Source of the DNA: a virus
Strand: one strand, 5' to 3'
Length of the DNA stretch: 47,157 bases
IMG/VR virus record: IMGVR_UViG_3300037245_003411
Location: 1-47,157 of that record
Shown: in pieces, positions 387 to 43,830 of the stretch
Layout of the letters: every line of letters begins with the position of its first letter
Numbering within the stretch: position 1 is the first letter of the stretch
Notes under the pieces: model-generated
What the model was told of the DNA's origin: nothing
Seen by the model: the letters and a program-made list of their open reading frames with translations, nothing else
Database searches by the model: none
Position numbers and translations under genes: made by a program

Positions 387-410
387 AAAAACGAACCTAT
401 GTGCGTTTTT
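387..410. repeat. 24-bp dispersed palindrome, copy 1
   Basis: Arms AAAAACG and CGTTTTT flank a 10-base core. Read in the sense of the downstream leftward gene the core is CACATAGGTT, identical to copies 2, 5 and 7. It lies in the gap between the 63-aa gene and the 50-aa gene and ends a few bases before the latter's ribosome-binding site. Confidence 0.9.
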
Positions 411-538
411 GGTTTATAAATGGTGTTTCCTGGAATGTCCAGGGTACACCAGTATTTACCACAAGTATTTTAATTACTTTCAATGCTGTTGATGCTTTCA
501 TATCCAGTGATTTAATAAAGACATCTTGTTTGAAGAAG

Positions 539-730
539 CTAATCATCTAAATCCTCCAGAGATAATAAATATTGATGACATGAATGAGCATGGTGAATTA
601 CTTCATTAACAGGACCACGGAAATCAAAATATCCACAACTCCATTCATTCTTGCTTCGTGGTGGATAAATACTTATCACCTTATAAACAAAGAATATGAA
701 GCATAACAACAATAACCACATGATAATCAT
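539..730 (-). CDS. Small single-pass membrane protein, 63 aa
   Basis: Residues 1-21 form one hydrophobic helix (MIIMWLLLLCFIFFVYKVISI), followed by a short polar tail rich in His, Asp and Glu. GAGG eight bases upstream supports the start. It is an early leftward gene close to the divergent control region. Small membrane proteins at this position are often host-takeover or superinfection factors in other phages, but nothing in the sequence shows that here. The function is unknown. Confidence 0.65.
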   Translation of the reverse strand: MIIMWLLLLCFIFFVYKVISIYPPRSKNEWSCGYFDFRGPVNEVIHHAHSCHQYLLSLEDLDD

Positions 731-740
731 AATATTTTCC

Positions 741-785
741 TCACTGTTTGTATTTAGTTATAGAATAAGTATAAAAAACACTCAT
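741..785 (-). CDS. Candidate leader peptide, 14 aa
   Basis: The ORF MSVFYTYSITKYKQ is preceded by GGAGTG at ideal spacing. It begins about 13 bases after the start site predicted from the leftward promoter at 805-832. Its stop codon overlaps the ribosome-binding site of the 63-aa membrane protein gene, so the two are probably translationally coupled. It could be a leader peptide. Too short to judge by similarity. Confidence 0.4.
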   Translation of the reverse strand: MSVFYTYSITKYKQ

Positions 786-804
786 ATTCACTCCAAATAT
801 GCCA

Positions 805-832
805 ATTATACTACAATAATATGGATAGTAAA
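805..832 (-). promoter_or_regulatory. Leftward early promoter
   Basis: On the minus strand TTTACT (plus 827-832) is followed after 16 bases by a perfect TATAAT (plus 805-810). It points at the leftward early operon starting at 785. It lies nearly back-to-back with the rightward promoter at 842-870, so the two form a compact divergent switch region. Confidence 0.55.
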
Positions 833-841
833 AGAAATTTG

Positions 842-870
842 TTGTAATCTTACTACTGCGCGGTTATACT
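842..870 (+). promoter_or_regulatory. Rightward promoter for a leaderless transcript
   Basis: TTGTAA (842-847), a 17-base spacer and TATACT (865-870). The ATG of the first rightward gene is at 878, only seven bases beyond the -10 box, which is where transcription would start. No Shine-Dalgarno sequence precedes that ATG. Together these suggest a leaderless mRNA. Confidence 0.5.
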
Positions 871-877
871 ACGACTC

Positions 878-1429
878 ATGGAAGCTCCTATAATACCACC
901 CAAGACTAAACAAAATAACGCAGAACTACAGTATCGTTACGATCACATTATTACTCTCTTAGCTAAAGGATTAAAGAGAGCTCAAATCTTTGTAGATCCG
1001 ACTGTCCTCTCCTGGAGAATGAGTAACGGATCCTTAGATAAGTATTTGCAGCATTCTAAGGGTGAGATCGTCTCTAACAGCCAACAGGCACGTACTGAGC
1101 ACTTAGGACGTGCTGTGATGAACCTTGACTACCTGTATAAGCTTACTCTGGACCAGACTATCATCCAGGAAGGAGAGGACAAGGGTAAGACAGTGAAGGA
1201 GCCGCTGCCAGCGATCAGAGTGTGTCTTGATATCCAGAAGGAGAAGAACAGACTCCTGAAGCTGAGTGATGTGTACAACCCAGTGGGTGCTGATATACCT
1301 GAAGAGCTGGTTCCGGATGAAGTACACAAGATGTTGGATGCAGTTAACATACTGAACGCACCTAAGATACGTACGATAGACCTGGATGCTGAGTTCGGTA
1401 AGAAGCTGATAGCCGGTTCAAGCAAGTGA
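878..1429 (+). CDS. Putative terminase small subunit
   Basis: A 183-aa protein. Residues about 20-60 could form a small helical DNA-binding domain. Residues about 70-135 are an amphipathic helical stretch ending IRVCLDIQKEKNRLLKLSD, which resembles the oligomerisation region of small terminases (DNA recognition for packaging). It is the first gene of the rightward transcript, about 4.6 kb from the large terminase, an unusual separation. Codons are richer in G/C-ending forms (CTG, AAG, GAG, GTG) than the neighbours, suggesting a different origin or a highly expressed gene. No ribosome-binding site is visible, so it is probably translated as a leaderless message. A different DNA-binding role is possible. 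Confidence 0.5.
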   Translation: MEAPIIPPKTKQNNAELQYRYDHIITLLAKGLKRAQIFVDPTVLSWRMSNGSLDKYLQHSKGEIVSNSQQARTEHLGRAVMNLDYLYKLTLDQTIIQEGEDKGKTVKEPLPAIRVCLDIQKEKNRLLKLSDVYNPVGADIPEELVPDEVHKMLDAVNILNAPKIRTIDLDAEFGKKLIAGSSK

Positions 1430-1650
1430 GTCTTGGTTGGCTCAATACCATGAATGTTATTAGATCTCTATGCCAACACATTATCATGGTTGTATCTTTC
1501 TCTTCTTACGTGTTTGATACAGGAAACTTCCTATATATCTCAAATCCCGACTCCCTCTCCCTCCCCCATTGGATTTTCCCACCCTATACACATTACGAAA
1601 GACTTCGTTACTCTAAAAAATTATGGTAAGGAAATTGCAGGAGGAAAGTA
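1430..1650 (+). other. Gene-free gap with polypyrimidine tract
   Basis: No convincing gene is present: overlapping ORFs of 65-67 codons lack ribosome-binding sites and have low-complexity Ser/Pro/Ile sequence. The stretch holds a C/T-only run near 1549-1567 and a short hairpin (ACGAA/TTCGT near 1590-1610). A packaging (pac) or regulatory site next to the small-terminase candidate is conceivable, but nothing proves it. Confidence 0.4.
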
Positions 1651-2061
1651 ATGAAGATGAAAGGCCGGGATATAGTGAAAAGAGTTAAAAATATTTTTCG
1701 GAAGAGGAGTTTCTATATAGTTTACTGGGGAAGAGGAATAAGGTTTGTCTTTCCGGAGAAGACAGTATTATGGGAATACAAAACGAAAACGAAAATCACT
1801 AATAATTTTGAGGAGAAGAGAATGGAAGGCCAGGATATAAAGAAAGTGGGTAAAGGCGCAAAAGTCTGGTCAGAAATGACAGATGGAGAGAAAGATGATT
1901 ATCTCGGTTCATTGGGTGGTTGTAGTAGTTGTGTTTATTGGTCAAGAGTCTTAAACAATTATAGACAAGAAACTGGTTGTGTATGCCCGATTGGAATAAA
2001 AGGCATTCAAATATATGATAATGGGTGTACTGCACTTTTATCTACAGCGTACAATAGTTGA
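1651..2061 (+). CDS. Hypothetical protein with Cys-rich C-terminus and internal start
   Basis: A 136-aa ORF with GGAGGAAAG before the first ATG. The N-terminal 50 residues are strongly basic. The C-terminal half has C-x2-C, C-x-C and a further Cys, which could bind a metal. A second in-frame ATG at 1822 has its own good ribosome-binding site (GGAGAAG), so a shorter 79-aa product (MEGQDIKKVG...) may also, or instead, be made. The two parts read like two joined genes. I do not recognise the family. Confidence 0.55.
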   Translation: MKMKGRDIVKRVKNIFRKRSFYIVYWGRGIRFVFPEKTVLWEYKTKTKITNNFEEKRMEGQDIKKVGKGAKVWSEMTDGEKDDYLGSLGGCSSCVYWSRVLNNYRQETGCVCPIGIKGIQIYDNGCTALLSTAYNS

Positions 2062-2116
2062 AAAATAAAATCGAGGCTACACCTTTATAAATAAACAGTT
2101 GCGCAGGGAGTGAATA

Positions 2117-3757: not shown

Positions 3758-3758
3758 A

Positions 3759-3947: not shown

Positions 3948-4145
3948 ATGTCTGAAAAAATATTAGATTTTCCGGTAAACACAGGTCGAGTACATACCTG
4001 TAATGTTTGTGGAAAACAATCCACATGGTTGGATGGATGGATGTGGAAATACAAATTTCATAAAGGCAACAGTTACGGTGATCCTGGATGGGAAGAAACA
4101 TATATAACCTGTTCTGATAAATGCAGAAACCAAAAACGCACATAG
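3948..4145 (+). CDS. Small zinc-finger protein, 65 aa
   Basis: CNVCGK near residue 18 and CSDKC near residue 55 form a typical four-Cys zinc site with a Trp-rich linker (WLDGWMWKYKF). The ATG follows the stop of the preceding gene with GAGGAAAAA as ribosome-binding site. The last codons run into copy 2 of the 24-bp palindrome. Probably binds nucleic acid or protein; the target is unknown. Confidence 0.65.
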   Translation: MSEKILDFPVNTGRVHTCNVCGKQSTWLDGWMWKYKFHKGNSYGDPGWEETYITCSDKCRNQKRT

Positions 4146-4155
4146 GTTCGTTTTT
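4132..4155. repeat. 24-bp dispersed palindrome, copy 2
   Basis: Arms AAAAACG/CGTTTTT with core CACATAGGTT in the sense of the downstream + strand gene. It overlaps the 3' end of the 65-aa zinc-finger gene and precedes the 90-aa gene. The 24-mer is the exact reverse complement of the plus-strand sequence of copies 1, 5 and 7, because those serve leftward genes. Confidence 0.9.
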
Positions 4156-4180: not shown

Positions 4181-4453
4181 ATGGGAAAAACATTGAATAA
4201 TACAGAGGTTTCCGGAGCGCACAAGAATGTTCCGGATCTTGAAGTTTACGGAGATGGAGATCTTTTTAAACTATTAGCAAAAGCATCTTCCAAAAAAGAG
4301 GGGTGGATGAAATCTACCAAAGGGATGGATGTCGGGACTGGAGTTGTTGTCCAGGTAACTACACAACAGGATGATCAGGTTGCTGAAGCATTATGCTTTA
4401 TACCTGGTGCCAGACTTGAAGGGAATGCAAAGGATGGCTGGAAAATAGCTTAG
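4181..4453 (+). CDS. Conserved phage hypothetical protein, 90 aa
   Basis: The sequence NNTEVSGAHKNVPDLEVYGD, then DLFKLLAKASS and GWMKSTKGMDV, matches a short protein I know from many unrelated phage genomes, always unassigned. It likely folds as a small beta domain (VVVQVTTQQDDQVAEAL). It is preceded by the palindrome copy 2 and AGGGAGAAG and followed directly by an intrinsic terminator, so it closes a transcription unit. Confidence 0.7.
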   Translation: MGKTLNNTEVSGAHKNVPDLEVYGDGDLFKLLAKASSKKEGWMKSTKGMDVGTGVVVQVTTQQDDQVAEALCFIPGARLEGNAKDGWKIA

Positions 4454-8377: not shown

Positions 8378-9997
8378 ATGGCACCAAAATTATCAGATTT
8401 AGACAACAGGTTCGATGCTCTCGAAAGTGAAAATATTAAACAGAGAGATACATGGGCTGAAATAGCAAAGTACACCAATCCATCGATGACATTACTTTTT
8501 GAAGGTGATGACACAGACGGAAAACTATATGCAAAAGATGTATATGATACAACTGCTATCGATAGTGTAAAAACATTTACTGATGGTGTTGTTGGAAATT
8601 ATGTATCAAAAAGTAATACATGGATGGGAATGATGGCAGTGGATCCGGAAGTTAACCGGAAGAAAACTGTCCAGGAGTTCCTGCAGGATGTAAATAAGAG
8701 AATGTTTGCTGCTTTATCCAGAAGTAATTTTTACAATGTAATTTCTCAATACACTACTTTGGGTATCACGATTGCGACTGCTACTATGTATGTTCAGGAG
8801 GATCCAAAGTTTGGCCGGATTATTTTTTCTGTACGCCATCCGATTGAAGTTTTTATTGATCAGGATTGGTATGGTAAAATTGATACATGTTTCCGGAGAA
8901 TAATCGTAACAGCAAAAGCAGCTGGAGATTTCTTCTTCAATGAAAAAAGTAAGTTTTCTGAAGGTTTAACAAAAGCAATAAACGATGATCCTTTCTCAAA
9001 ATTTAATTTTCGACATGCTGTATTCCCTGCAACTGGTGAATATTTTAAATATCCTGGCGTTACAGGGAATTATGCTTCTATTTATTGGGAGGAAGGAGAA
9101 GACAAAGAATTGAGCGTGGGAGGCTATGATAGTTTTCCGTTTGTTTCATGGCGATACAGACAGGAAGGTAATGAAATTTATGGTCGTGGTCCTTCTCATG
9201 ATGCTCTTCCCGATATCAAAAATGTAAATGCAATGAAACATGATATAATGAAGTATTCTCAGAAGCAAGGCGACCCTCCACTTAATATTCCTTATGAGAT
9301 GAAAGGGAAAGTCCGGAATAAACCTGGTGGAGCAAATTATTATCAGGATACTGGTAGAGTTGTTTCTCCTTGGAATTCAGCAAGTAATATTCCTGTTACA
9401 CTTGAACAACTTAAGGATATGCGAGCACAGATTGAAAATCATTATTATGTTCCTTATTTTAAAATGCTTACCGGTCTTACTCAAAGAATGACTTCTTTCG
9501 AAGTCGCTGAAAGGAAGAGTGAACAGGCCACATTAATTTCAACTCCAATAATCAAATATGAGAGTGAAGCTCTTGATGAACTTCTTTTTCGTGTGTTTGA
9601 AATCGAAAGTGCAGCTGGACGAATGCCTGATATTCCAAACGAGCTTCAAGGAGAGGTTACCTGGCAGTATAATGGTCCTCTTGCACAGATTCAGATCAGA
9701 ACAGCAAAAAATGATGGGATAAAAGCGACTATAAATGATCTTGAAAGGATTGTACCATTCGCTCCTCAAGTAATACAGACTTTTAATTGGGATCAGGTAG
9801 CAAGGGATCTTGCAATGAATAATGGATTTCCTGCAAAGGATATATTTTCTGAACAGGAAGTTGAGAAAAAACTTGCTGAACAAAAACAGTTACAAGAACA
9901 GCAAAATCAACTTGCAGCTGCTGAGTCGATGGGGAAGGCCATGCCTGGTCTTAATCAGGAAATTGTTGAAGGTTCACCTGCAGAGGCTCTTTTATGA
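8378..9997 (+). CDS. Portal (head-tail connector) protein
   Basis: 539 aa. It forms the dodecameric ring at the head vertex through which DNA passes. The sequence has the pattern of the podoviral head-to-tail connecting family (T7 gp8/BPP-1 type): early ESENIKQRDTWAEIAKYTNPS, DGVVGNYVSKSNTWMGM, the GRGPSHDALPDIKNVNAMK helix entry and MTSFEVAERKSE, then a Gln-rich helical C-terminus. Start supported by GGAG. Length typical. Next to terminase and scaffold as expected. Confidence 0.9.
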   Translation: MAPKLSDLDNRFDALESENIKQRDTWAEIAKYTNPSMTLLFEGDDTDGKLYAKDVYDTTAIDSVKTFTDGVVGNYVSKSNTWMGMMAVDPEVNRKKTVQEFLQDVNKRMFAALSRSNFYNVISQYTTLGITIATATMYVQEDPKFGRIIFSVRHPIEVFIDQDWYGKIDTCFRRIIVTAKAAGDFFFNEKSKFSEGLTKAINDDPFSKFNFRHAVFPATGEYFKYPGVTGNYASIYWEEGEDKELSVGGYDSFPFVSWRYRQEGNEIYGRGPSHDALPDIKNVNAMKHDIMKYSQKQGDPPLNIPYEMKGKVRNKPGGANYYQDTGRVVSPWNSASNIPVTLEQLKDMRAQIENHYYVPYFKMLTGLTQRMTSFEVAERKSEQATLISTPIIKYESEALDELLFRVFEIESAAGRMPDIPNELQGEVTWQYNGPLAQIQIRTAKNDGIKATINDLERIVPFAPQVIQTFNWDQVARDLAMNNGFPAKDIFSEQEVEKKLAEQKQLQEQQNQLAAAESMGKAMPGLNQEIVEGSPAEALL

Positions 9998-12480: not shown

Positions 12481-12514
12481 AAAATGGGGTAGGGATAACC
12501 TGCCCCATTTTTTT
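12481..12514 (+). terminator. Strong rho-independent terminator after head genes
   Basis: AAAATGGGG pairs with CCCCATTTT, with further AGG/CCT pairs inside, followed by seven T residues. It starts right after the cement-protein stop. A copy of the 24-bp palindrome follows at once. Confidence 0.9.
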
Positions 12515-12515: not shown

Positions 12516-12539
12516 AAAAACGCACCTACATTCGTTTTT
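12516..12539. repeat. 24-bp dispersed palindrome, copy 3
   Basis: Arms AAAAACG/CGTTTTT with a divergent core CACCTACATT. It is placed between the terminator at 12481-12514 and the ribosome-binding site GGAGG (12540-12544) of the tail adaptor gene, so it touches the ribosome-binding site directly. Confidence 0.85.
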
Positions 12540-12548
12540 GGAGGTTTC

Positions 12549-13118
12549 ATGCCAAACAAATTAAATATTATAAATATGGCACTTCTTCTTGCCGGTGAAG
12601 AACAGATTGCCGATATAGATGATGATTCAAAACCTGCAAATACAGCGAAAGCATTCTGGGATCTTTGTCTTCAAAGTCTGATATCAAGGCACGATTGGTC
12701 CTGGTCTATAAAAAGAGTCACATTAAGTCCTGATACAGAAGCACCTGATTTTGGATATACAGCCAAATTCCTACTTCCAGATGATTTTAATCATATTGTT
12801 ATAAATATCATTGATGATCCGGAAGAAGAAGAATTTGATTACAGAATTGAGGGAGAATTTTTACATTATAGTTCCGATACATTGGAATTAAGATATTCTG
12901 CAAATATAACAAATGTAATAATTCTATCAGCAATGGCCTCAGAAGCCCTCACATATCTTCTTGCTGCAAAAATAGCAGCTGCATTAAGTTCAAGTCCGGA
13001 GAAACCAAATGTTTATCTTGGGAATGTCTATGAAAATAGATTATCATTAGCAGTTACCCAGGATCCGGTAGGAATAGGAATTTTGTATTCAGTTGAATCC
13101 TGGCCGGATACAAGATAA
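12549..13118 (+). CDS. Tail adaptor (T7 gp11-like tail tubular protein A)
   Basis: 189 aa. The start MPNKLNIINMALLLAGEEQI with the following helix WDLCLQSLISRHDWSWSIKR is characteristic of the tail tubular A/head-completion adaptor that joins the portal to the nozzle (compare INxALxxLG...A...RD..L..H.W.FA). The ATG is preceded by GGAGG, which touches palindrome copy 3. The stop overlaps the next ATG. Confidence 0.82.
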   Translation: MPNKLNIINMALLLAGEEQIADIDDDSKPANTAKAFWDLCLQSLISRHDWSWSIKRVTLSPDTEAPDFGYTAKFLLPDDFNHIVINIIDDPEEEEFDYRIEGEFLHYSSDTLELRYSANITNVIILSAMASEALTYLLAAKIAAALSSSPEKPNVYLGNVYENRLSLAVTQDPVGIGILYSVESWPDTR

Positions 13119-24671: not shown

Positions 24672-24695
24672 AAAAACGCATGTAGGTGCGTTTTT
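24672..24695. repeat. 24-bp dispersed palindrome, copy 4
   Basis: Arms AAAAACG/CGTTTTT with core CATGTAGGTG. In this copy the first core base pairs with the last, so the stem is longer than in the others. The T-tract merges into the GGAGG ribosome-binding site of fibre 2. Confidence 0.88.
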
Positions 24696-27700: not shown

Positions 27701-27806
27701 AAGACATCATATTGCTTCTGCATTTGCTACAAATGGGTTAGGGGTAGGTGGAAATCTTGGACAAGTAGAAATATATGCAGACGTATTTATAGAGAAAATA
27801 GGGTAG
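24705..27806 (+). CDS. Tail fibre 2 with collar domain, 1033 aa
   Basis: Residues 1-140 are paralogous to the start of fibre 1 (VNT...DYPANYQIQ..., LSIRRRTNLQQEVDFVEGTDFP), so both anchor to the same tail site. Residues about 668-725 (IGSSMAWNESAIPVGYLRDNG...YSDLFAVIGTAYGVGDGSTTFNLP) are a clear phage tail-collar domain. The last about 150 residues (LAGTYKITASAPSF..., EIYADVFIEKI) look like a C1q/TNF-like trimeric tip. A Gly-rich hinge (GGGSGGG) precedes the collar. Likely the second receptor-binding protein. Confidence 0.82.
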   Translation: MLSTLTTIVNTQCTSLLVFDYPANYQIQIEDQIEVYYVDTGGNDNLLDLTSDYEITDISETGFNVQLVTSYDEGILSIRRRTNLQQEVDFVEGTDFPAEVFEKTLDKHMMAIQEIDEKASRAIRTHPSESAADLILPNAEDRADKFIAFNSDGSKVIASEGSLSGPVENIIWDKLQFNDDPPDPASEPAGLLWWNKEDYALNVATGIGPVLQVGQESYVIVYNGTGEQIDNGAAVYPIGGFQGRPSVAKANSLSHVKILGEVLIATMDIPDGEFGIVTQFGKVRGIDTSSWPLGSTLWVSDAIDGALTNVKPEFPSYAIQVGGVTVSDADGEIIVTVKGIPENTIVNFWNGTFRETIDFLVTSNGTVITGSLTPANGHDDMTMIFSDGLTLLDTDPAVTIELVPGSDSVPVLNYVYIPKSTKVLTVSTSGWPSTQHIKVANILLKTAAATENEGALKNQNWNDHIEDTDTFQGHLSHIGERMRQEHAKWDIGIAGSVTIDSGPSPDDVFVAVDSGYVYQMHRQFFPALNMETGEDIHIVNNFATPYKATDNLNTETLDANGDSLANGSFSFVVWGVQNKTGQTSHLMLNLPTGKYSKNNPESAVNDAVNYSVYDIPKEFQGVGFLITRFTFVLSTNGLIWTLHETQDLRGKIPNNVAGGGSGGGAETTSIPIGSSMAWNESAIPVGYLRDNGQEVSRTTYSDLFAVIGTAYGVGDGSTTFNLPKSDFDSGWITVGITWGAGNSITINHGLRVAFGEYEKQILIRNDAVPDKIYNAKHQVYASGDYGQQLNGSNTDELNNCILQIGNISSRYIPDTGVGAVPVPTSGWSYKVILVRKDFPANSIIRATNTSVTLEAVTSDTIADLIVTNSATFQGATEAEQGITVPVLHVQDQKSSGTAGGTSAAGVNIRVLNIVRTNTIIGASLDIGTSRITLLAGTYKITASAPSFKAASHRIYLYNITDAADEVLGASSYTGTAYAVTTHSLIQDIFTITATKVFELRHHIASAFATNGLGVGGNLGQVEIYADVFIEKIG

Positions 27807-29549: not shown

Positions 29550-29706
29550 TTGCACTGGCAGGATTCGAACCTGCAACGGTGACTAGCCGCCCAATTGTTA
29601 ATTACTGGCTATTATCTCTAACTTTACCAGTGAGTCGTTCTCTGTCTCGGCTATTAGAGTCATATACCGAGTTCAATGAGGTGTCTACCAATTTCACCAC
29701 AGTGCA
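29550..29706 (-). tRNA. Oversized tRNA-like element (Leu-type ends), possibly interrupted
   Basis: On the minus strand the first seven bases TGCACTG pair perfectly with the 3' CAGTGCA, followed by discriminator A. The T arm is perfect (GCAGG, loop TTCGAAT, CCTGC). The D region GTGAAATTGGTAGACAC is that of class II (Leu) tRNAs. Between D and T arms there are about 110 bases instead of about 45, with two hairpins (CTCGG/CCGAG and ACTGG/CCAGT), and I find no standard anticodon arm. Total 157 nt. It may be interrupted by an insert, degenerate, or a tRNA-like regulator. It lies at the 3' end of the early transcript. Confidence 0.6.
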
Positions 29707-31479: not shown

Positions 31480-32028
31480 CTAAAATGGAACGTCATCATA
31501 ATCAAAGCCAGCTGCTTGATTTGGTTTATAAAAACCTTGATTCTGGGTCACAGGAGGCTTGTTTTCAAGTGCCTGTGCGAAAGGGCTCTTTGCCTTAGGA
31601 GATCCACCCTGACCCCCTACAAATCCTTCCTGGTCGGGTTTTTGCTGCTGTCTCTGTTGTGGAGCTGCATTTTGTTGAGGTGGTTGACTCTGATTTGAAC
31701 TTTGCTGTGAGTCTCCTGCAGTAAAGCTTAAATTTTTGACAATGAATTTCATTGCACTTCTTTTCTGGCCATCCTGATTTTCCCATCTTTCATGCTTTAT
31801 TTCTCCCTGGATGTTGACCGGTTTTCCTTTCAGTAGATACTGGTGAAGATTTTCAGCAGTCTTACCGATAATTTCACAGTTAAAGAAATTGGTATGTTTA
31901 TATTCTTTATAACCTGTATTATTGGCAATTGTAAATGTGGATTTTGGTGTATCCTTTTGACCGAAAGTTGAGTATTCAGCGTCTGCAGTAAGTCTTCCTT
32001 CGATCATGAACAGATTCATATTAGCCAT
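31480..32028 (-). CDS. ssb: Single-stranded DNA-binding protein (SSB1)
   Basis: 182 aa. Residues 1-105 form an OB fold (MNLFMIEGRLTADAEYSTFG, FTIANNTGYKEYKHTNFFNCEIIGKTAENLHQYLLKGKPVNIQGEI). The C-terminal half is Gln/Pro-rich and ends in the acidic tip DYDDVPF, which recruits partner proteins in bacterial SSBs. It follows the replication-initiator-like gene with a short overlap. Confidence 0.9.
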   Translation of the reverse strand: MANMNLFMIEGRLTADAEYSTFGQKDTPKSTFTIANNTGYKEYKHTNFFNCEIIGKTAENLHQYLLKGKPVNIQGEIKHERWENQDGQKRSAMKFIVKNLSFTAGDSQQSSNQSQPPQQNAAPQQRQQQKPDQEGFVGGQGGSPKAKSPFAQALENKPPVTQNQGFYKPNQAAGFDYDDVPF

Positions 32029-34219: not shown

Positions 34220-35764
34220 TCAAAATGAGAGTTTATGTGATTTGATCATATCGATCATAACGGATGCCTGAGCCTTCATTATGTGAGAGTCGTATTGGTA
34301 TCCAATTTTTGTTAAAAGGTATTTCTGGCCCCGTGTAGCCTTACCTATCATGGGAATATAGCCGTTCTTGCTGTAGATATCTATAAGATGGGAAGCTTGC
34401 GCCTTGTCCAGGTTGGACCAGTAAACTCCATATCTGTTTAAAATATCAATTTGTTTAGGTGTTATTGTACCCGAAAGTTTTCTGCCTTCGTATGTAATGT
34501 CGAATTCTCCGGAGATATCTTCTCCCATCAGTTCAGCTGCAGAGAAAGGATCGAATTGTTCGAATCCATATTCCTTTGTCATTAACCTGTTTGTCAGGTT
34601 TTCCGGTTTTTCCCATTCAATTCGTGCAGCTTCCAATGTGGCGAAGAGATCTACCTCTTGCCCTCCCAGAATGGTTGTCTTTTCTCTGAGTTTTTCGGGA
34701 TAGTTTTTAGTTGCGAACAATTCATATGGTTGCACAAGATTAAGTCGTGTCGAGTTATAGGTGAACTCGACAAAAACCAACCGTGTTTTTCCAGGGGCCA
34801 ATCGCGTGCCACGACCGACAAGCTGACAGTACAGTGGCCTGGATGCAGTAGGCCGTATATTAACGATTGCTTCCACTGTAGGTTCATCAAAACCTTCAAG
34901 AAGAATATTACAACTGACCAAATGTGAAATTTGCCCGGTTTTAAATTTGTAGAGAATATTGCCCCTCTCTTTTTTTCTATCTCCAGATAAGTAATCAGCA
35001 TCTAATCCTATCCTTTGCAGCTGCTCTGCCATGACTGCAGATGATTTTACATCCGGCATAAAGATCATGGTTTTCTTATCAGCTGTCACTTTTTTTATAC
35101 TATTTCCCAAAGGGATAATATATTTCAACATTACTTCACCGAGCTGTTTATCGGTGTAATCTTTTCCGGATACCCTGAGCTGAGTGAGATCTATATCCAG
35201 ATCAGTAACTCGGTACCCAATTATTTTTGCAAGAAATCCTTCTTTGATAGCTTTATGAAGAGGATATTCATATGCAATCACATTAAAGACAGTACCGAGT
35301 TCTTTTTCATCAGCACGATCTCCAGTGGCTGTAGCTCCTACCAGACTGTATCCTGTGAAATAATTAAGTATATTCTGATAAGTTTTTGCTACGGCATGAT
35401 GAGCTTCATCCACAATAATCAACTGGAAGTGATCTTTCGGCCATCGTTCCAGTCTACTATTCTGCATGGTCTGTACGGATCCGACTACAATTGATGCTTC
35501 GCGGCTTGCTCTATGTTCTGCTTTTTCTTTGTCTGGATAAATCCCAAGTATTTCAAAGGCTTTTGCTATAGCCTGGTCAACAAGTTCCTCTGTGTGTGCA
35601 AGGATTAACACTTTCATTCCAAAATTTGTGCAACGGCCTGCAGTTGTTACGAAGACCACCGTTTTTCCAGTACCGGTGGCCATAAGTAACAGTGGGTTAT
35701 TACCAGAAACAATTTCTGAAACAACCGCTTCGTCAGCTTCTTCCTGGTAATACCTTAATTTCAA
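34220..35764 (-). CDS. SF2 DEAH-box helicase
   Basis: 514 aa. Walker A ATGTGKT is at residues 29-35, DEAH at 119-122, motif III GATATGDR at 143-150 and motif VI QLVGRGTR at 314-321. This is a full UvsW/T5 D10-type superfamily-2 helicase. Such phage helicases drive branch migration and replication restart. The C-terminal third (after about 380) is less conserved. Overlaps the DUF3102 gene by four bases. Confidence 0.9.
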   Translation of the reverse strand: MKLRYYQEEADEAVVSEIVSGNNPLLLMATGTGKTVVFVTTAGRCTNFGMKVLILAHTEELVDQAIAKAFEILGIYPDKEKAEHRASREASIVVGSVQTMQNSRLERWPKDHFQLIIVDEAHHAVAKTYQNILNYFTGYSLVGATATGDRADEKELGTVFNVIAYEYPLHKAIKEGFLAKIIGYRVTDLDIDLTQLRVSGKDYTDKQLGEVMLKYIIPLGNSIKKVTADKKTMIFMPDVKSSAVMAEQLQRIGLDADYLSGDRKKERGNILYKFKTGQISHLVSCNILLEGFDEPTVEAIVNIRPTASRPLYCQLVGRGTRLAPGKTRLVFVEFTYNSTRLNLVQPYELFATKNYPEKLREKTTILGGQEVDLFATLEAARIEWEKPENLTNRLMTKEYGFEQFDPFSAAELMGEDISGEFDITYEGRKLSGTITPKQIDILNRYGVYWSNLDKAQASHLIDIYSKNGYIPMIGKATRGQKYLLTKIGYQYDSHIMKAQASVMIDMIKSHKLSF

Positions 35765-36408
35765 AACTTACTCTCCTTATAATTTCCAATCAATCCACCA
35801 ACACAGATATTACACCCCTTTCCACTGCAAAGAGGGCAATCTTCCATATCGTTAGGATCCCATGAGCGAAGAACATCTACCATGTCTTTAATATTTCCAA
35901 ACATATGACCAAGTGATTCCGGAGTAGTAGAATTTCTTAAGCCTATAAGTCTTCTCCAAACAGATTCCATTTGGTTAATCAATGGTTCAAGATGATCCCA
36001 ATAATCATAAGCTGATATTTGACCATGAGCTTCTGTATCTGTAGGAGTCACATCTACCATTCCATTTTCATCAGTATTTTCGTGAACTGGGTTTTTGTGG
36101 ATGTGAACATCCTGATCTTCCTCTTTTACAGGAGATATCAATAAGTATGCTTCGCTTAAACCATTTGCTCCAAGCTTTTCGAACTGGTCCTTGTTTGAAT
36201 ACACAGACATGTATTTCTGTGCAGTACGGATAGAGAATGGTAAATTCTCCTGCAGCCAGGGCGTAAACTCTCCATGATCAAAGTTTTCTTTTTGCTCAGT
36301 AAGCATTTCACCTACTTCTATAGCAAGATGTAGAGTACCAAGTTGTCTGCTTTGAAATTCGAGATGTTTTTTTATAATTCTTTCTGTGAGATTTTTAACT
36401 ATTTCCAT
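35761..36408 (-). CDS. DUF3102-family protein, 215 aa
   Basis: AIEVGEMLTEQKENFDHGEFTPWLQENLPFSIRTAQKYMSVY (about residues 26-67) is the classic DUF3102 signature, a helical domain found in phages and mobile elements, possibly DNA-binding. The C-terminus has CPLCSGKGCNICVGG, a likely zinc site. The start overlaps the CAP gene; the ATG at 36408 is preferred (GGAG upstream) over a TTG at 36420. Confidence 0.8.
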   Translation of the reverse strand: MEIVKNLTERIIKKHLEFQSRQLGTLHLAIEVGEMLTEQKENFDHGEFTPWLQENLPFSIRTAQKYMSVYSNKDQFEKLGANGLSEAYLLISPVKEEDQDVHIHKNPVHENTDENGMVDVTPTDTEAHGQISAYDYWDHLEPLINQMESVWRRLIGLRNSTTPESLGHMFGNIKDMVDVLRSWDPNDMEDCPLCSGKGCNICVGGLIGNYKESKF

Positions 36409-36865
36409 CATCATCTCCAATCATTACATAAGCGGTAAAAAATATATTACCGTTTTTTTTACTATAGCCGGCTCCTATGAACCGGCCTGAGGGATTAAGT
36501 AGAGCTTCTTTATGGGGCTCTGACATCATAAATAAAAGAAATATTTGGTAAGGTAGATAATCAGATGGGCCTGAAGCGAGGACTTCAAGAAGTGTTGAAG
36601 TTGGAATGTCATAATTTGTACATAAAGAATTAAATTCAAATTCTGTCAGTATAAAATGATCAATATTCCCATTCTTTGCCAGGATTTCTGAGTATGTAGT
36701 AGCTACTTTTTCAATATTTACATTTCTTTCCAAGGGTATAAGATCCATGCTTTCCCTTATAGTATTTACATGGAAATAAAAATCCGATGTATATTCATCG
36801 GCTTGTGCTTCATAACAAGAAAAAAAGAGAAGCACAAAAATAAAAATTAGTAAAACTTTTTTCAA
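36395..36865 (-). CDS. CAP-domain lipoprotein
   Basis: 156 aa from the TTG start at 36865. MKKVLLIFIFVLLFFSC is a lipoprotein signal (Cys 17). The mature part has CAP/SCP features: LNxIR-type start (VNTIRESMDLIPLERNVNIEKVATTYSEIL), LLEVLASGP, SEPHKEALLNPSGRFIGAGYSKK and a closing FFTAYVM strand. CAP proteins are extracellular or periplasmic. GGGAGG lies five bases before the TTG, which overlaps the previous stop (TTGA). An early-expressed lipoprotein suggests action at the host envelope. Confidence 0.75.
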   Translation of the reverse strand: MKKVLLIFIFVLLFFSCYEAQADEYTSDFYFHVNTIRESMDLIPLERNVNIEKVATTYSEILAKNGNIDHFILTEFEFNSLCTNYDIPTSTLLEVLASGPSDYLPYQIFLLFMMSEPHKEALLNPSGRFIGAGYSKKNGNIFFTAYVMIGDDDGNS

Positions 36866-37794
36866 CTTATCCTCCCGCATAATTCGCTGACCGGGCAATA
36901 CTTTTCACATTTAGTATCTTTTCCGGTATCTTTGTTGTGCCATCTCTCCTTTTCTGAACATTTTGGAGGGCATAATTTCTGCAATGCATCCCATCGTTCA
37001 TCTTGAGAGAGTTTTTCTGTTAATCTGAAATCGATAATATTTTGAGCAGTGGTGCTTTTTTCATCAATGTAATCATCAATGATTTTATCATCGAGTATTT
37101 TTACTTCCTCAAAATATGTATTTTTGTTAAGTCCTTGCTCCTTTGTGGCTGCTAATCCACCATCTCTCAATACAAAGAAGATCATTAACCTGGAAACTGT
37201 TATTCCAAGATTCTCCTCAATGGCTTTTTTGTATATATTAAGCTGAAATTCATATTGAGATTTATCTGCAGATGCAGGATCCAGTATCCATTCGCCTTTC
37301 ATTTTTTTCTGGCCTTTCCTGGCTCCAGATTTGAAAAACTTTTGTACTCCAAACTCATCAATATCCGGAATATACTTTTTTTGCCATCCTTGAAATTTCC
37401 TGACAGCAAAAGCTCCCTGATTTTTGTAATCAGTAAGCCAGTAGTCTTTATTGAATTGCTGATCCAGCAAATCCAATTTACCCTTTATATTTCTATAAAT
37501 GAGTTCTTTTTCATGGAAAGGATTGTCCGGATCTTCCATGACATTATGCTTAAATGTCCCTGCAACCGCAAAGGCACTCGCGTCCGGATCAACACAGTAA
37601 AATGTGGTGTATTTTAAATAGGTCTCCCTTTTCCCATTATAAAGATCTGTGACATGGAGATATCCATCCCACTCTCTTTCCACACCGATGGCTTTAAGAT
37701 ATGGCAATGGAAAGCCTTCCATTTGTATTTTGCCGGAAAGGACATCAGCGATCTCGTACTTTTTGTCACCTTCAATGAACCATTTAGCTGGCAT
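36862..37794 (-). CDS. Cas4/RecB-like PD-(D/E)XK nuclease
   Basis: 310 aa. FKHNVMED (about residue 83), GKLDLLDQQFNKDYWLTDYKNQ (D and K near 107-125, the D-ExK site) and QLNIYKKAIEE (about 185) match the RecB/Cas4-type nuclease fold. Cysteines near the C-terminus (CPPKCSEK...CEKYCPVSELC) could hold a Fe-S cluster as in Cas4/AddB-type enzymes. In this operon it would supply ends for the Erf annealing protein. Confidence 0.78.
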   Translation of the reverse strand: MPAKWFIEGDKKYEIADVLSGKIQMEGFPLPYLKAIGVEREWDGYLHVTDLYNGKRETYLKYTTFYCVDPDASAFAVAGTFKHNVMEDPDNPFHEKELIYRNIKGKLDLLDQQFNKDYWLTDYKNQGAFAVRKFQGWQKKYIPDIDEFGVQKFFKSGARKGQKKMKGEWILDPASADKSQYEFQLNIYKKAIEENLGITVSRLMIFFVLRDGGLAATKEQGLNKNTYFEEVKILDDKIIDDYIDEKSTTAQNIIDFRLTEKLSQDERWDALQKLCPPKCSEKERWHNKDTGKDTKCEKYCPVSELCGRIS

Positions 37795-38671
37795 TTTCTT
37801 CTCCTTTGCCCCGCATAAGCCGGGCTCGTTTAATTTTACCTTTTATATGGGGATAACTGCGTTCAATTATCTCCCATCCTTCATTATGTTGAAGATTATG
37901 GTGCGATCTGTGAGCTGCGATCCAATTCCAGGGCATCTCATAAATCGTTCCATCAGCTCCGGCAGATATAATGTGCATTCTTTCGATTGGATCTGTATCG
38001 ACTCCTGAGAGAGCACATAACTCGCAAACAGGATGGTTTTCTTTATACCTGTCCCAAGACATTGTTGCTTCAAGCTCTTGCAGCGGATCCTTCTCTTGTT
38101 CATATCTCCACCTATACCAGCCTTCCCAAAGTTTTTTCATATCATGGCCGATTGATTTTAGAATTTCATCAGGTATATCAGAAGAAGCCAGTTCGTTTAA
38201 AGCTCCTTCAACAATTTTTGCCATTTCGGTGGTTGTCATAGAAGGATCACTGGTTCTTTTTGGTAAAGAAATGCCGGTTAATGGATTTGTCACCCAGATA
38301 GAATGTTTTTCAAGGAATCCTTCATGGATCCAATACATATCATCTTTTGTCGGTTCATAACCATTTGTAGCAATAAAGAAGAATCTTTCGATTCCTCGAA
38401 GTGTAGAGTTTTGATTATTTGTTCTCCGGAAGGAGACTGTGGAGATTCTAAGTAAAGGATTTTCTGTAAATTGGAATGCGAGCTCTGAACCATTGGCGCT
38501 TAAAATTGATGCCTTAACATTAAGAGACAAATCAAGTAGTACATCCTTTTCTGCTTTTAAAGAATGTACTACAAGTTCTCTTATGAATTCTTTCTGATCT
38601 GTAGGGACTTTAACTGTTAAGCCGATACCTTCAATTGTGTCTTTCAGTTCGACTGTAGCTCTACCGTTCAT
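37784..38671 (-). CDS. HNH-type protein, 295 aa
   Basis: The C-terminal third holds CELCALSG...MHIISAG...NWIAAHRSHHNLQHNEGWE, a Cys-pair/HNH-like arrangement of phage nucleases acting on branched or single-stranded DNA. The N-terminal two-thirds (MNGRATVELKDTIEGIGL...) is of unknown type, alpha/beta. The start overlaps the YopX gene. A recombination nuclease is likely. Confidence 0.6.
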   Translation of the reverse strand: MNGRATVELKDTIEGIGLTVKVPTDQKEFIRELVVHSLKAEKDVLLDLSLNVKASILSANGSELAFQFTENPLLRISTVSFRRTNNQNSTLRGIERFFFIATNGYEPTKDDMYWIHEGFLEKHSIWVTNPLTGISLPKRTSDPSMTTTEMAKIVEGALNELASSDIPDEILKSIGHDMKKLWEGWYRWRYEQEKDPLQELEATMSWDRYKENHPVCELCALSGVDTDPIERMHIISAGADGTIYEMPWNWIAAHRSHHNLQHNEGWEIIERSYPHIKGKIKRARLMRGKGEENAS

Positions 38672-39038
38672 GTGTGGTCCCGATTATTTTATAATTAAAA
38701 GCACTATGAGCATGTATTTCTATGTATTTTGGTAATGAGGATTTCCCTTTAACACGTTTAAGCATTATGCAACCTTTATGCATTACAACTTCTCTCAATA
38801 CCTCCCTGTCTGTTTTATAGTTATTGCTTACAAGATCACCAAAGAATACATCTTTCCCCTGCATTTTATAACCGGTGTATTGTTCTTCGTTTTCATAAGG
38901 ATAATCTGTAGAAATAGCAAGATGTTTTGAATCTTTTTCTAATTGCCTTTCACAACCTTCATCATATAAATCTTTTAAACTAAAATAAAAAAATCTTTTA
39001 TATTGTGTATCCCATGCTCTAAACTTAGTTTCTCTCAT
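38661..39038 (-). CDS. YopX-family protein
   Basis: 125 aa. RETKFRAWDTQYKRFFYFS at the start and EEQYTGYKMQGKDVFFGDLV in the middle are the YopX domain, common in phages, of unknown function and resembling an SH3-like barrel. The palindrome copy 5 lies directly before its GGAGATATT ribosome-binding site. Confidence 0.85.
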   Translation of the reverse strand: MRETKFRAWDTQYKRFFYFSLKDLYDEGCERQLEKDSKHLAISTDYPYENEEQYTGYKMQGKDVFFGDLVSNNYKTDREVLREVVMHKGCIMLKRVKGKSSLPKYIEIHAHSAFNYKIIGTTHER

Positions 39039-39048: not shown

Positions 39049-39072
39049 AAAAACGAACCTATGTGCGTTTTT
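39049..39072. repeat. 24-bp dispersed palindrome, copy 5
   Basis: Same sequence as copies 1 and 7 (core CACATAGGTT in leftward sense), with one extra A in the tract. It overlaps the last bases of the 378-aa gene and is followed closely by the YopX gene. Confidence 0.9.
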
Positions 39073-40207
39073 ACCTGATTATCATTGCAGCACCGCGAAG
39101 AGTGTTGATTGCCTGAAGCATAGCATTACGACCAATTTCGCATTCAACTTCTTTCATATATTTTGCTAAAGAAGCAGCACAGCCGGTTAATATCTCTTTA
39201 TCAGTTTTCTTGGACTCAGTAGAAAGATGTGTGCCAGTAGGACAAAATTGAGGTCCTGCAGGAGAATCCATTTCTCGATCATATTCAGTATTATAAATAA
39301 CCTCTTCTTTTTCCGGGGTATCAAATCCAAGCATTTCCCCAAGAGAAGCGTCTTTGTCGGTGGCCAGGGTATCCTTTTTACTGATAGGTATACCTTTCGT
39401 AAAACCGAAAAGAACATCTTTCTTAAAAGTGTTTGTTTCAGATGACTCAGTATTTTCTACAAGAGATTTATTTTGTTCTCTAAGATCATCATTTTCTTTA
39501 ATAAGAGCAGTCTGCTTATCATTAAATTCTTGGTGATATTTTTTCATAAGTGTAAACAACGTTTGAAACTCTTCTTCGGTTGTTTCCTGGAATAAATCAA
39601 GAAGTGGATGAAATTGAGAATAAGGAAGAAGCAATTCTTTACGTTCATCAAAGATTAACTGCTGTGCATCTTTCTTTTTCTGTGCATCCGAGTTTTTGAT
39701 AATATCTGCTTTTATCTTTTCATCAGCTGCTACTATACCAGTAAGATGGATTTTCCATGCTTCTTCCGGCATATTACCAAGGTCAACAAAAGAACTATCA
39801 ACATTGTAAGGTTCAAGGAGAGCAAGCCTTTTCTTTTTAAGTTTATCTATTTTTGCCTGAGCTATTCTTTCAAAATGTTCCTCAACTTCCTTAAGAGCTT
39901 TTTCTTTTTTTGTAGTTTCCTCTTTCAGGTTGTTGTAAAGAGTCTGTATAACCTTTCCTGCAGCATTATATTGAGCTTTTTCCTTTGTTTTCCAATTCTC
40001 TCCATCAATACGAACCTTCTGTATTCGTAGTCGAAGAGACCTGGCTTCCCCGGATACTTCCGTGGATATCTCTTTTTCAAGAACAGCTGTATATTCATCA
40101 TTCATCAAGGCAAGGCCAGCTTCCATATCCCTATAGGCTTTTCGAACTGCCTTTGCTTTCGCATCGTCGAGAGGAGTGAGTATTACGGTTAAGGCTTTAT
40201 CATCCAT
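39071..40207 (-). CDS. Coiled-coil recombination-region protein, 378 aa
   Basis: Residues about 20-130 and 190-260 are highly charged coiled-coil (EKAQYNAAGKVIQTLYNNLKEETTKKEK). Such proteins accompany Erf in many phages (DUF1351-type), but I do not see a catalytic site. The start ATG has AGGAG upstream. May assist DNA annealing or chaperone Erf. Confidence 0.6.
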   Translation of the reverse strand: MDDKALTVILTPLDDAKAKAVRKAYRDMEAGLALMNDEYTAVLEKEISTEVSGEARSLRLRIQKVRIDGENWKTKEKAQYNAAGKVIQTLYNNLKEETTKKEKALKEVEEHFERIAQAKIDKLKKKRLALLEPYNVDSSFVDLGNMPEEAWKIHLTGIVAADEKIKADIIKNSDAQKKKDAQQLIFDERKELLLPYSQFHPLLDLFQETTEEEFQTLFTLMKKYHQEFNDKQTALIKENDDLREQNKSLVENTESSETNTFKKDVLFGFTKGIPISKKDTLATDKDASLGEMLGFDTPEKEEVIYNTEYDREMDSPAGPQFCPTGTHLSTESKKTDKEILTGCAASLAKYMKEVECEIGRNAMLQAINTLRGAAMIIR

Positions 40208-41194: not shown

Positions 41195-41380
41195 TTATTT
41201 CCAATATCTGGAATTTGGTTCTAAATTATCAAGAATCCTTAAAACATCTTCAAGTGCATCTTTATAACCACCTGCATATCCTTCGAGAGTCATAGCTGAT
41301 CCATAAATTCCAGAAGAATTACCCTTGATTTCCTTTTCACAATTTTTAAATAATATTTTTATATTTGTTTTAATTTTCAT
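41195..41380 (-). CDS. Hypothetical protein, 61 aa
   Basis: Begins MKIKTNIKILFKNCEKEIKG, with a C-terminal helix YKDALEDVLRILDNL. Start overlaps the stop of the 109-aa gene. Unknown function. Confidence 0.55.
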   Translation of the reverse strand: MKIKTNIKILFKNCEKEIKGNSSGIYGSAMTLEGYAGGYKDALEDVLRILDNLEPNSRYWK

Positions 41381-41706
41381 TCAACAGTTCCTTGAATTAT
41401 TGTTACCCAGTCATTCTCTAATTCTTCCAGATCATATCCGAATTTAAGAGCAATGTAGTGCGCATAACTCCAAATATGATCTTGAACATCTTTAGAGAAT
41501 AATCCTGGATAGATTTTATAATGAGCTGTTCTTTTATATGCAGTAAAGTATGCGCGGTAAGCCATTCTCTTTGCACCAAGGGTTTTTCTTTTTATCAATC
41601 GTTTTATTAGACCATGAGCTAAAGACTTTAAAGCATGATTGGCTGCGTTCTTGTACCATGTGTGACTAGACTCGTAACCCCAGTATTCTAATATAATAAC
41701 ATGCAT
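41377..41706 (-). CDS. Basic hypothetical protein, 109 aa
   Basis: The N-terminal part is very basic and aromatic (HALKSLAHGLIKRLIKRKTLGAKRMAYRAYF), suggesting binding to nucleic acid or membrane; the C-terminus is acidic (EELENDWV). It is the first gene after the strong leftward promoter at 41732-41760. GAGG lies upstream of the ATG. Confidence 0.6.
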   Translation of the reverse strand: MHVIILEYWGYESSHTWYKNAANHALKSLAHGLIKRLIKRKTLGAKRMAYRAYFTAYKRTAHYKIYPGLFSKDVQDHIWSYAHYIALKFGYDLEELENDWVTIIQGTVE

Positions 41707-41731: not shown

Positions 41732-41760
41732 ATATTATCACAATATTATCTATGAGTCAA
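41732..41760 (-). promoter_or_regulatory. Internal leftward promoter
   Basis: TTGACT (plus 41755-41760), a 17-base spacer and TAATAT (plus 41732-41737). It starts transcription about 20 bases before the 109-aa gene and would drive the downstream recombination genes. A palindrome copy sits just upstream. Confidence 0.7.
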
Positions 41761-41773
41761 AGAATTTATTTCA

Positions 41774-41797
41774 AAAACGTACATAAGTTCGTTTTTG
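41774..41797. repeat. 24-bp dispersed palindrome, copy 6
   Basis: Arms AAAAACG/CGTTTTT with core AACTTATGTA (leftward sense). It lies between the stop of the 114-aa gene and the internal promoter, that is upstream of a promoter instead of a ribosome-binding site. Confidence 0.85.
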
Positions 41798-41798
41798 G

Positions 41799-42143
41799 TT
41801 AAAAAGTAATGATTTCAACAAATCCTGATTTAGGATAGCTATCTTCTTCCAATTTTTTTTCTCGAGAAGATACATTGTCAGGATAAAACCAATCACCATC
41901 TTTGTCTTTTTTCATACCATTATTAATCAATGTTTCGTCTGTATCGATTCTAAGATATGAAGGATCTGGATAATTGCGAATTGTGAAATCTACTATAATT
42001 CCTTTAACAAAAATGTAATCAATATCACCATTACCATTTACAAATATTTCACCAGTTGTTCTATAAGGTTTTTCAACCTGGCTATTATCTGCCAGAGATC
42101 CTTTCATTATTTCCATGGCTTCGTCCAATGCTCCATTATTCAT
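41799..42143 (-). CDS. Hypothetical protein, 114 aa
   Basis: Contains RIDTDETLINNGMKKDKDGDWFYPDNVSSREKKLEE, a type of DxDGxWxYPDNV ending seen in other short phage proteins. Starts MNNGALDEAMEIMKG and overlaps the previous gene. It ends just before palindrome copy 6. Unknown function. Confidence 0.6.
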   Translation of the reverse strand: MNNGALDEAMEIMKGSLADNSQVEKPYRTTGEIFVNGNGDIDYIFVKGIIVDFTIRNYPDPSYLRIDTDETLINNGMKKDKDGDWFYPDNVSSREKKLEEDSYPKSGFVEIITF

Positions 42144-42372
42144 CTTTTAATCCTTCAAGGATTCTTCTTGCAATTTCAATTTCAGCATCTTTTTCTGAAT
42201 TGAAATATTCAAAATCTATGTTTTGATCACCATAATTTTTAACGTGATATACAGTTTTTATTTTATTATCCCATTTGTAAAATCTGACACCAGTAATAAT
42301 TCTTTGGTATGCTTCTCTGTCTTTTATGATCCAGACAACATCATCAATTTCTAACGGCACATCAATTTTCAT
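42136..42372 (-). CDS. Hypothetical protein, 78 aa
   Basis: Begins MKIDVPLEIDDVVWIIKDREAYQRIITGVRFYKWDN, which looks like a small barrel domain followed by helix EKDAEIEIARRILEGL. Similar one-domain proteins occur in many phages. AGGAGAAAA precedes the ATG. Confidence 0.6.
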   Translation of the reverse strand: MKIDVPLEIDDVVWIIKDREAYQRIITGVRFYKWDNKIKTVYHVKNYGDQNIDFEYFNSEKDAEIEIARRILEGLKDE

Positions 42373-42381
42373 AATTTTCTC

Positions 42382-42603
42382 CTATAGATTTTTAACGATC
42401 ATTTCGTTATGGTAATCTTTATATCGTTTTGTGTTTTTCTTTTTATAATCATCCCAAACAATTTCATTGAATTTTTCAGCAATATACCAACGGAGTTCAA
42501 CACCATCCCATTCTTCAGGAAGTTTCATAAAAGAGAAGGTAATTTGTTCTTTTACTGTATCTATCATTGAATCAACAAAATCTAACTGTCCTGTTCTGGT
42601 CAT
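42382..42603 (-). CDS. Hypothetical protein, 73 aa
   Basis: Begins MTRTGQLDFVDSMIDTVKEQITFSF; WDGVELRWYIAEKFNEIVWDDYKKK suggests a small alpha/beta fold. AGAGGTATAAT upstream. Unknown function. Confidence 0.55.
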   Translation of the reverse strand: MTRTGQLDFVDSMIDTVKEQITFSFMKLPEEWDGVELRWYIAEKFNEIVWDDYKKKNTKRYKDYHNEMIVKNL

Positions 42604-42604
42604 A

Positions 42605-42799
42605 TTATACCTCTGTTATTTCAATATCGTGAATATGCCAATAGCATTGAAATCTATATGCTTTGTAATCAGAATAAGCGAATTTATTACGAACATAATA
42701 TTTGTTAGCTCTAATTTCCATAAGTTTTTTAGCTTTATCTTCGTCATCCAGGACCACGGCTTTTATGACATCATTCATAAAAATACAATAAGCAATCAT
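42605..42799 (-). CDS. Hypothetical protein, 64 aa
   Basis: Begins MIAYCIFMNDVIKAVVLDDEDKAKKLM and has an aromatic second half (YSDYKAYRFQCYWHIHDIEI). It overlaps the previous stop by one base. It resembles other phage proteins of the MxxYxVxxNDxxxA type. Unknown function. Confidence 0.6.
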   Translation of the reverse strand: MIAYCIFMNDVIKAVVLDDEDKAKKLMEIRANKYYVRNKFAYSDYKAYRFQCYWHIHDIEITEV

Positions 42800-42996
42800 T
42801 ATTTGTTCCTTATTCTGTAATACGAGATAGCGGCATCAGAGAAATAACTGAATTTGGCTTCAATTGAATAAAAGAATTTAGCATCAAGATAATATTTATA
42901 CTTTTCCCAAAAAGTATCACCATATTCATCTATTTGTTTGACCATTTGTTCGCGCTGATCATTAACTAGGCTTTCATGAATAATTTCAATATTCAT
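42799..42996 (-). CDS. Hypothetical protein, 65 aa
   Basis: Begins MNIEIIHESLVNDQREQMVKQIDEYGDTFWEKYKYYLDA; helical and aromatic. Overlaps both neighbours by a few bases, so it is part of the coupled small-gene run. Unknown function. Confidence 0.6.
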   Translation of the reverse strand: MNIEIIHESLVNDQREQMVKQIDEYGDTFWEKYKYYLDAKFFYSIEAKFSYFSDAAISYYRIRNK

Positions 42997-43352
42997 AAGA
43001 TACTTCTTAGTTGATTTTTGGTTAAAAAATTAACTTTGATATTTTCTATTGGGGTTTGAACATTTTCAACGGTATATGTTCCATCATCAAATTCTTTCTC
43101 CGGACCGACAATTAAACCATTGCCGGCAAGAACCTGGAAACTATCAAGACGGAAAAACATAGACTCTTCTGTTAATGTGAGTAATCCTTCGTCATCGACA
43201 AATAAAACGTCACCATTTGGATATGAAGCGCCAGCTGTAAAACATTTACATTCAATGCGATCATGCATTTCTGCTATGCGGCTTTCGCTATTGGATGACA
43301 ATTCAACATAGTGAACTGATTTTTCTTTTGAGTTAATAAATATTGCTTTCAT
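42993..43352 (-). CDS. DUF3846-like protein, 119 aa
   Basis: KAIFINSKEKSVHYVELSS..., GDVLFVDDEGLL and VLAGNGLIVGPEKEF match the DUF3846 pattern of small phage proteins. The ATG at 43352 has GGAAGGAAAA upstream. It overlaps radC, whose stop is just inside. Function of the family is unknown. Confidence 0.65.
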   Translation of the reverse strand: MKAIFINSKEKSVHYVELSSNSESRIAEMHDRIECKCFTAGASYPNGDVLFVDDEGLLTLTEESMFFRLDSFQVLAGNGLIVGPEKEFDDGTYTVENVQTPIENIKVNFLTKNQLRSIL

Positions 43353-43795
43353 AATTTTCCTTCCTCCAAAAAACTGTAATATCCACATTTTGAGATAATT
43401 ATATGATCAAGAACTTCGATACCAATAATAATACCGGCATCTTTGATTCTTTTTGTAATTTCATTATCTTCCTGTGATGGTTCTAAATTCCCGGAAGGAT
43501 GATTGTGGATTATAATTATGGCTGCAGCGGAATCGATAATTGCCTGTCTGAATATCTCTCGGGGATGTACAAGTGTTCTGTTAAGTAATCCTATAGAACA
43601 TACTCTGGTCTCAATAACTTCATGGGCTCCATTCAGAGAAGTGACTATGAAATGTTCCTGGTTCTTTTCTGCATATTCCCATACCGCAGGAAGAATATCT
43701 GATGGAGCTGTTATTTTTTTAACGGGGTTAGCTGTCTCTAAAGCAAAAAGCTCATTAAGAAGATATTCTTTTGAGTAAATCAATTCATCATTCAT
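43349..43795 (-). CDS. radC: RadC/JAB-domain protein
   Basis: 148 aa. The JAB/MPN+ metal motif HNHPSGNLEPSQED (residues 97-110) is perfect, preceded by AIIDSAAAIIIIH. RadC-type proteins occur in mobile elements and phages and may act on DNA or on proteins. Palindrome copy 7 lies directly before its GGAGAATC ribosome-binding site. Confidence 0.88.
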   Translation of the reverse strand: MNDELIYSKEYLLNELFALETANPVKKITAPSDILPAVWEYAEKNQEHFIVTSLNGAHEVIETRVCSIGLLNRTLVHPREIFRQAIIDSAAAIIIIHNHPSGNLEPSQEDNEITKRIKDAGIIIGIEVLDHIIISKCGYYSFLEEGKL

Positions 43796-43806
43796 TGTGA
43801 TTCTCC

Positions 43807-43830
43807 AAAAACGAACCTATGTGCGTTTTT
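43807..43830. repeat. 24-bp dispersed palindrome, copy 7
   Basis: Identical to copies 1 and 5 on the plus strand (core CACATAGGTT in leftward sense). It fills the gap between the 184-aa gene stop and the radC ribosome-binding site. Confidence 0.9.

Follow-up and report, generated by a model that had tools for sequence, protein, structure and literature searches.

In the Streptomyces phage phiC31, a temperate siphovirus, conserved inverted repeats that are dispersed, dyad-symmetric and intergenic are bound by the phage repressor, mainly at early promoters. The operators of the C1 repressor of phage P1 are asymmetric and are located at promoters. C1 binds operators that are dispersed across P1 (PMC8198154). 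Cluster A mycobacteriophages (L5, Bxb1, TipsytheTRex) carry stoperators, many short sites spread genome-wide, mostly in promoterless gene gaps and in some cases at promoters, with a consensus that differs from one subgroup to the next (PMC6550527, PMC9283540). Stoperators are 13 bp long, asymmetric, bound by a monomer and dependent on orientation; their reader is an immunity repressor, encoded by the phage and carrying an N-terminal HTH, which blocks elongation when bound. In cobaviruses, bidirectional intrinsic terminators that are GC-rich stand between the converging arms of phage genes (PMC6775973).

Here we analyse the IMG/VR virus record IMGVR_UViG_3300037245_003411 (47,157 bp, 37% G+C), the whole of which is referred to as the window, and the seven 24-bp palindromes that it carries. 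The palindromes resemble Cluster A stoperators in being dispersed, mostly in short intergenic gaps and all seven at gene boundaries, in having a lineage-specific consensus (8.81/10 identity within versus 4.66/10 between genomes of the clade), and in mixing few promoter sites with many boundary sites. They differ in being 24-bp dyads, the orientation of which flips in two relatives (L057 and G002), and the window is without a recognised repressor, integrase or parABS system. We do not file them as stoperators, because they are palindromic, are not fixed in orientation in all relatives and have no recognisable repressor. Like the phiC31 repeats they are dispersed, dyad-symmetric and intergenic, but most copies are promoterless and the carrier is a T7-like podovirus. 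The P1 operators offer a precedent for the arrangement proposed here of one repressor with many dispersed sites, but differ in asymmetry and promoter location. An A-tract/T-tract inverted repeat is common to the cobavirus terminators and the window sites, whereas the window stems are AU-rich and precede genes of the same operon.

The repeat and its genome

The virus is an uncultured T7-like podovirus of bacteria, with genes arranged in two arms. The plus arm is structural (terminase large subunit, T7-type portal, capsid, tail tubular proteins A and B, ejection proteins and tail fibre), and the minus arm encodes helicase, SSB, Erf, RusA, HNH and RadC-like proteins. The record has 127-bp direct terminal repeats (1-127 and 47031-47157), comparable in size with the terminal repeats of VpV262 (138 bp) and ICBM2 (159 bp), and probably represents a complete genome. 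The nearest capsids among named phages are approximately 32-34% identical and include those of BPP-1/phiV10-type podoviruses. Among the scanned window proteins we recognised neither a CI-type repressor nor an integrase or ParA, so that a lysogenic role is unsupported; RNA polymerase was likewise not recognised among these proteins, and no ParB was found in the window. The clade-mates are also uncultured, and one of their contigs is binned in a Spirochaetes MAG (2.6 Mb), which hints at Spirochaetes as host. Other features of the window include two different SSB genes (31480-32028 and 44505-44843), as in the relative G016, and a tail gene (22778-24442) holding 5.8 tandem copies of a 135-bp unit at 23617-24405. 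On the minus strand, a tRNA-like gene (29550-29706) has good acceptor, D and T arms, but 74 nt are inserted at its anticodon arm. ARAGORN predicts tRNA-Val(aac) with an intron, and an Rfam match is absent; the gene, which lies between the two gene arms, may be a tRNA that has been disrupted or a former attachment site.

The pattern AAAAACG-N10-CGTTTTT occurs in exactly seven exact copies in the window, and no spacer other than 10 gives the pattern. It was found 0 times in 200 dinucleotide-Markov genomes, and the reversed pattern has a count of 0 in the window. All seven copies of the original prediction, with arms AAAAACG and CGTTTTT, were thus recovered, the start of the sixth being corrected from 41774 to 41773. 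Each copy falls within a non-coding gap or at its edge (P = 0.075 for a single site, approximately 1e-8 for seven), at gene boundaries of both early and late operons. The copies constitute a genuine set of DNA sites, spread over the genome and under selection, with the symmetric consensus AAAAACG-n-AC-n-TA-n-GT-n-CGTTTTT.

Site 1 (387..410, minus strand) separates the first gene of the minus strand (220-372) from the region of divergent early and late promoters. Site 2 (4132..4155, plus) overlaps the 3' end of the ORF 3948-4145, 25 bp before the ORF 4181-4453. Site 3 (12516..12539, plus) directly precedes the Shine-Dalgarno sequence of the tail tubular A gene (12546-13118), and is itself directly preceded by a GC-rich hairpin with a T-run (12486..12514, plus) that follows the capsid genes and, as read in the sequence, resembles an intrinsic terminator. 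Site 4 (24672..24695, plus) is placed in the same way before the tail fibre gene (24705-27806), directly ahead of its Shine-Dalgarno. Site 5 (39049..39072, minus) is found between the stop of the gene 39071-40207 and the YopX-like gene 38661-39038, site 6 (41773..41796, minus) between the genes 41799-42143 and 41377-41706, and site 7 (43807..43830, minus) between the RadC-like gene 43349-43795 and the stop codon of the gene 43830-44384. Site 6 adjoins a sigma-70-like promoter match, TTGAAA-18-GATAAT (41745..41774, minus; a match to the consensus only), of which the -35 element overlaps the T-tract of the site, in agreement with the original prediction that one copy precedes a promoter. Five of the window sites stand between a stop codon and the next Shine-Dalgarno. 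As had been claimed, four copies (387, 4132, 39049 and 43807) are identical when read toward the downstream gene (AAAAACGCACATAGGTTCGTTTTT); the copy at 24672 is nearly symmetric, and that at 41773 fits better in the opposite sense. The claim that six copies end within a few bases of a ribosome-binding site is upheld for five, which end 0-5 nt upstream of a Shine-Dalgarno (12516, 24672, 39049, 43807 and, loosely, 387), but not for 4132, at approximately 13 nt.

A shared frame with lineage-specific cores

Relatives were gathered by TerL and MCP similarity and by pattern search. Checking them for the motif, as originally suggested, reveals that the same 24-bp frame is conserved across the clade, with an inner 10 bp that is specific to the lineage. 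The cores are CGCATGTACATTCG in G008, CGAAAyyAGTTTCG in G002 (4 copies), CGCAAGTAGTTGCG in G009-G013 (up to 6 copies), CGAAAGGTGTTTCG in L057 (2 copies), CGACACACGTGTCG in G003/G004 (4 and 3 copies) and CGACACrCGTGTCG in G016 (7 copies). The carriers are monophyletic with support of 0.988 in a TerL tree that covers all but G008 and G004, and dispersed dyads of this kind are absent from VpV262, ICBM2 and 76 further TerL relatives. In the Spirochaetes MAG the motif is restricted to the phage contig, and so it is not a host site. Scanning viral_contigs with the core of the window itself gave 13 contigs with one match each, which were put down to chance; a helicase-based scan returned generic helicase relatives only, without the motif, and a scan with the protein encoded at 37784-38671 returned only G016. 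In G003 (L040), another conserved box, AGTnnGACTnCAGAGACTTnAGT, comes after the sites (1182-1234 and 9395-9471).

The within-genome excess of inner-10-bp identity described above was reached in 0 of 5000 label permutations. Gene-by-gene comparison of the window with G010 identifies five pairs of sites in equivalent positions: 387/7558 (within the same divergent region), 12516/16529, 39049/78, 41773/2377 (where the G010 copy is followed by a similar TTGACG...GATAAT) and 43807/4471. In all five pairs the frame is kept and the core is switched, in the same direction, to the spelling of the other phage, and such concerted change is what one would expect if a single reader had changed its specificity. 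Dyad symmetry is preserved through the core changes. The position of site 3 is matched in G008, G002, G010, L057 and G003, so that in six phages a copy is placed after the capsid-gene terminator and before the Shine-Dalgarno of tail tubular A, with the qualification that the G003 copy stands ahead of a small gene immediately preceding tail tubular A. Equivalents of the terminator-like hairpin are present in these five relatives and in G016, where the motif is absent before the tail tubular A gene. Site 4 has its counterpart in G016, at 8646.

Proposed regulator and candidate proteins

The best reading of the sites is that they are dyad operators, dispersed over the genome and placed in the manner of stoperators. 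We give a probability of roughly 0.55, somewhat better than even, that the copies are dispersed double-stranded DNA operators for one dyad-binding regulator that co-evolves with them and is probably encoded by the phage. Among the four readings offered by the original prediction, that of operators for a phage regulator is best supported, given the concerted lineage-specific cores and the dyad symmetry. Each site would be a 24-bp dyad in which the A-tract/CG outer arms are fixed and the inner 10 bp provide the specificity, and the reader would be a single trans-acting, symmetric (dimeric) DNA-binding protein, probably encoded by the phage. At promoterless boundaries the bound protein may block elongating host RNA polymerase in the manner of a stoperator, and at the promoter-adjacent site it may act as a classical operator control.

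The DUF3102 (PF11300) protein encoded at 35761..36420 on the minus strand is a candidate reader, judging from its HTH-like segment (PFSIRTAQKYM) and the CxxC pairs in its C-terminal part. It is present in the window and in G016, and the other contigs stop short of that region. Its AlphaFold model is poor (pLDDT 48), and a literature search on DUF3102 found nothing. A second candidate binder is the 183-aa small-terminase-like protein encoded at 878..1429 on the plus strand, modelled as an HTH with a helical hairpin. It has a homologue in every clade phage covering the region, each time with a motif copy within approximately 500 bp, and its family is absent from 85 motif-less loci. No significant fold match to the model was found with Foldseek and VIA-align, only weak helical-hairpin matches, small terminases among them. 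Because of this resemblance to a small terminase, the presence of the protein may only mark the clade.

Competing explanations and implications

The identical orientation of copies relative to the downstream gene had been taken as an argument for function in RNA, but the argument does not hold across relatives: in L057 the two copies, each read relative to the gene downstream of it, are exact reverse complements of one another, and every copy of G002 faces one way whatever the direction of the gene. An mRNA hairpin beside the Shine-Dalgarno, serving as a weak bidirectional terminator, a processing site or a translational operator for an RNA-binding protein, would explain why many copies stop 0-3 nt short of a Shine-Dalgarno and why four window copies share one orientation. 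A hairpin can be folded in all copies, the strongest reaching -6.4 to -10.1 kcal/mol (G002, G003 and the window copy at 24672), but the other six window copies fold at -1.7 to -5.2 kcal/mol, including only -1.7 kcal/mol at 12516 and -4.5 kcal/mol, with a C-U mismatch, for the four identical copies. Arm pairs 1-10 of 31 sites are almost always Watson-Crick, and G-U pairs are not enriched among the exceptions (2 G-U versus 18 mismatched cells, i.e. 2/20 non-Watson-Crick). The outer A and T tracts are nearly constant though they add little to a hairpin, and the central TA is constant in the window, G008 and G010 though it would be in the loop. Two G016 copies are intragenic, at 139 in the DUF3102 gene and at 17670 in the tail tubular B gene. 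These observations on pairing, folding, orientation and intragenic copies lower the likelihood of a role in RNA, which we regard as unlikely but retain because most copies are so near a Shine-Dalgarno. As for termination, another of the original readings, 0 of 6 scanned window sites scored as terminator-like (24672 being outside the scanned regions), a GC-rich terminator is already present directly upstream of 12516, and the window sites do not have the stable GC-rich stem with a U-run of an intrinsic terminator.

If the site were, or activated, a phage-specific promoter with its start just past the T-tract, this would suit the tail tubular A position, where the site is squeezed between terminator and Shine-Dalgarno with no space for another promoter, as well as the G that often follows the T-tract and the TTGAAA-18-GATAAT adjoining 41773. 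Most other copies have no convincing promoter at the site. Before the tail tubular A gene the motif is not an obligatory promoter, because G016 keeps the terminator there without the motif. In T7, read-through beyond the capsid terminator is normal, which counts against the need for a promoter here. A phage-RNA-polymerase promoter of T7 or N4 type would call for an encoded polymerase, but no RNA polymerase family match was obtained among the scanned proteins, and the 1624-aa window protein resembles a T7 gp16-type ejection protein and has no DxDxD motif. A promoter element is therefore quite unlikely; readings of the motif as a Bacteroidetes -7 box and as an N4 hairpin promoter were considered and dropped. 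Sites for genome maintenance or packaging, either centromere-like as in prophage N15 or recognised by the small-terminase-like protein, would be consistent with the constant proximity of a copy to the 878-1429 homologues, the absence of that family at motif-less loci, the predicted fold of the protein and the ParB-like gene of VpV262. This explanation is nonetheless improbable: the window has no ParA or ParB, partition or packaging needs no strict gene-boundary placement in both operons, and with pac sites all over the genome packaging would start at scattered points, which does not fit the defined 127-bp terminal repeats of the window. The sites also do not behave like the module-exchange or recombination joints originally envisaged, because their positions are conserved between phages while the cores change. 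A mobile or selfish repeat would differ in position between relatives, but the window shares positions with G010, and six phages share the one before tail tubular A. A dif-like recombination site was rejected, as there is no enzyme and the genome would be scrambled. Non-functional repeats homogenised among copies by short-homology recombination are conceivable given the encoded Erf-type annealing protein, and such homogenisation could mimic concerted evolution and so counts against operators, though 24 bp is very short. Conserved positions with diverged cores, symmetry kept throughout and boundary placement require selection, making homogenisation very improbable.

A broader form of the operator reading is tentative and rather doubtful: that a non-integrating, T7-shaped podovirus controls its entire genome through dispersed dyad operators that act as roadblocks and are recognised by a novel type of regulator (e.g. 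the DUF3102 HTH/zinc protein), the code being re-spelled in concert at all sites in each lineage, so that a stoperator-like system would have evolved independently outside the actinobacteriophages. If the sites are operators, they would constitute a natural series of co-evolved site alleles within one phage clade, paralleling the immunity groups of mycobacteriophages but with symmetric sites and a T7-type virion. The regulator would be findable directly, since the binder must have shifted its specificity in step with the sites, and elongation control at gene boundaries would have arisen more than once.
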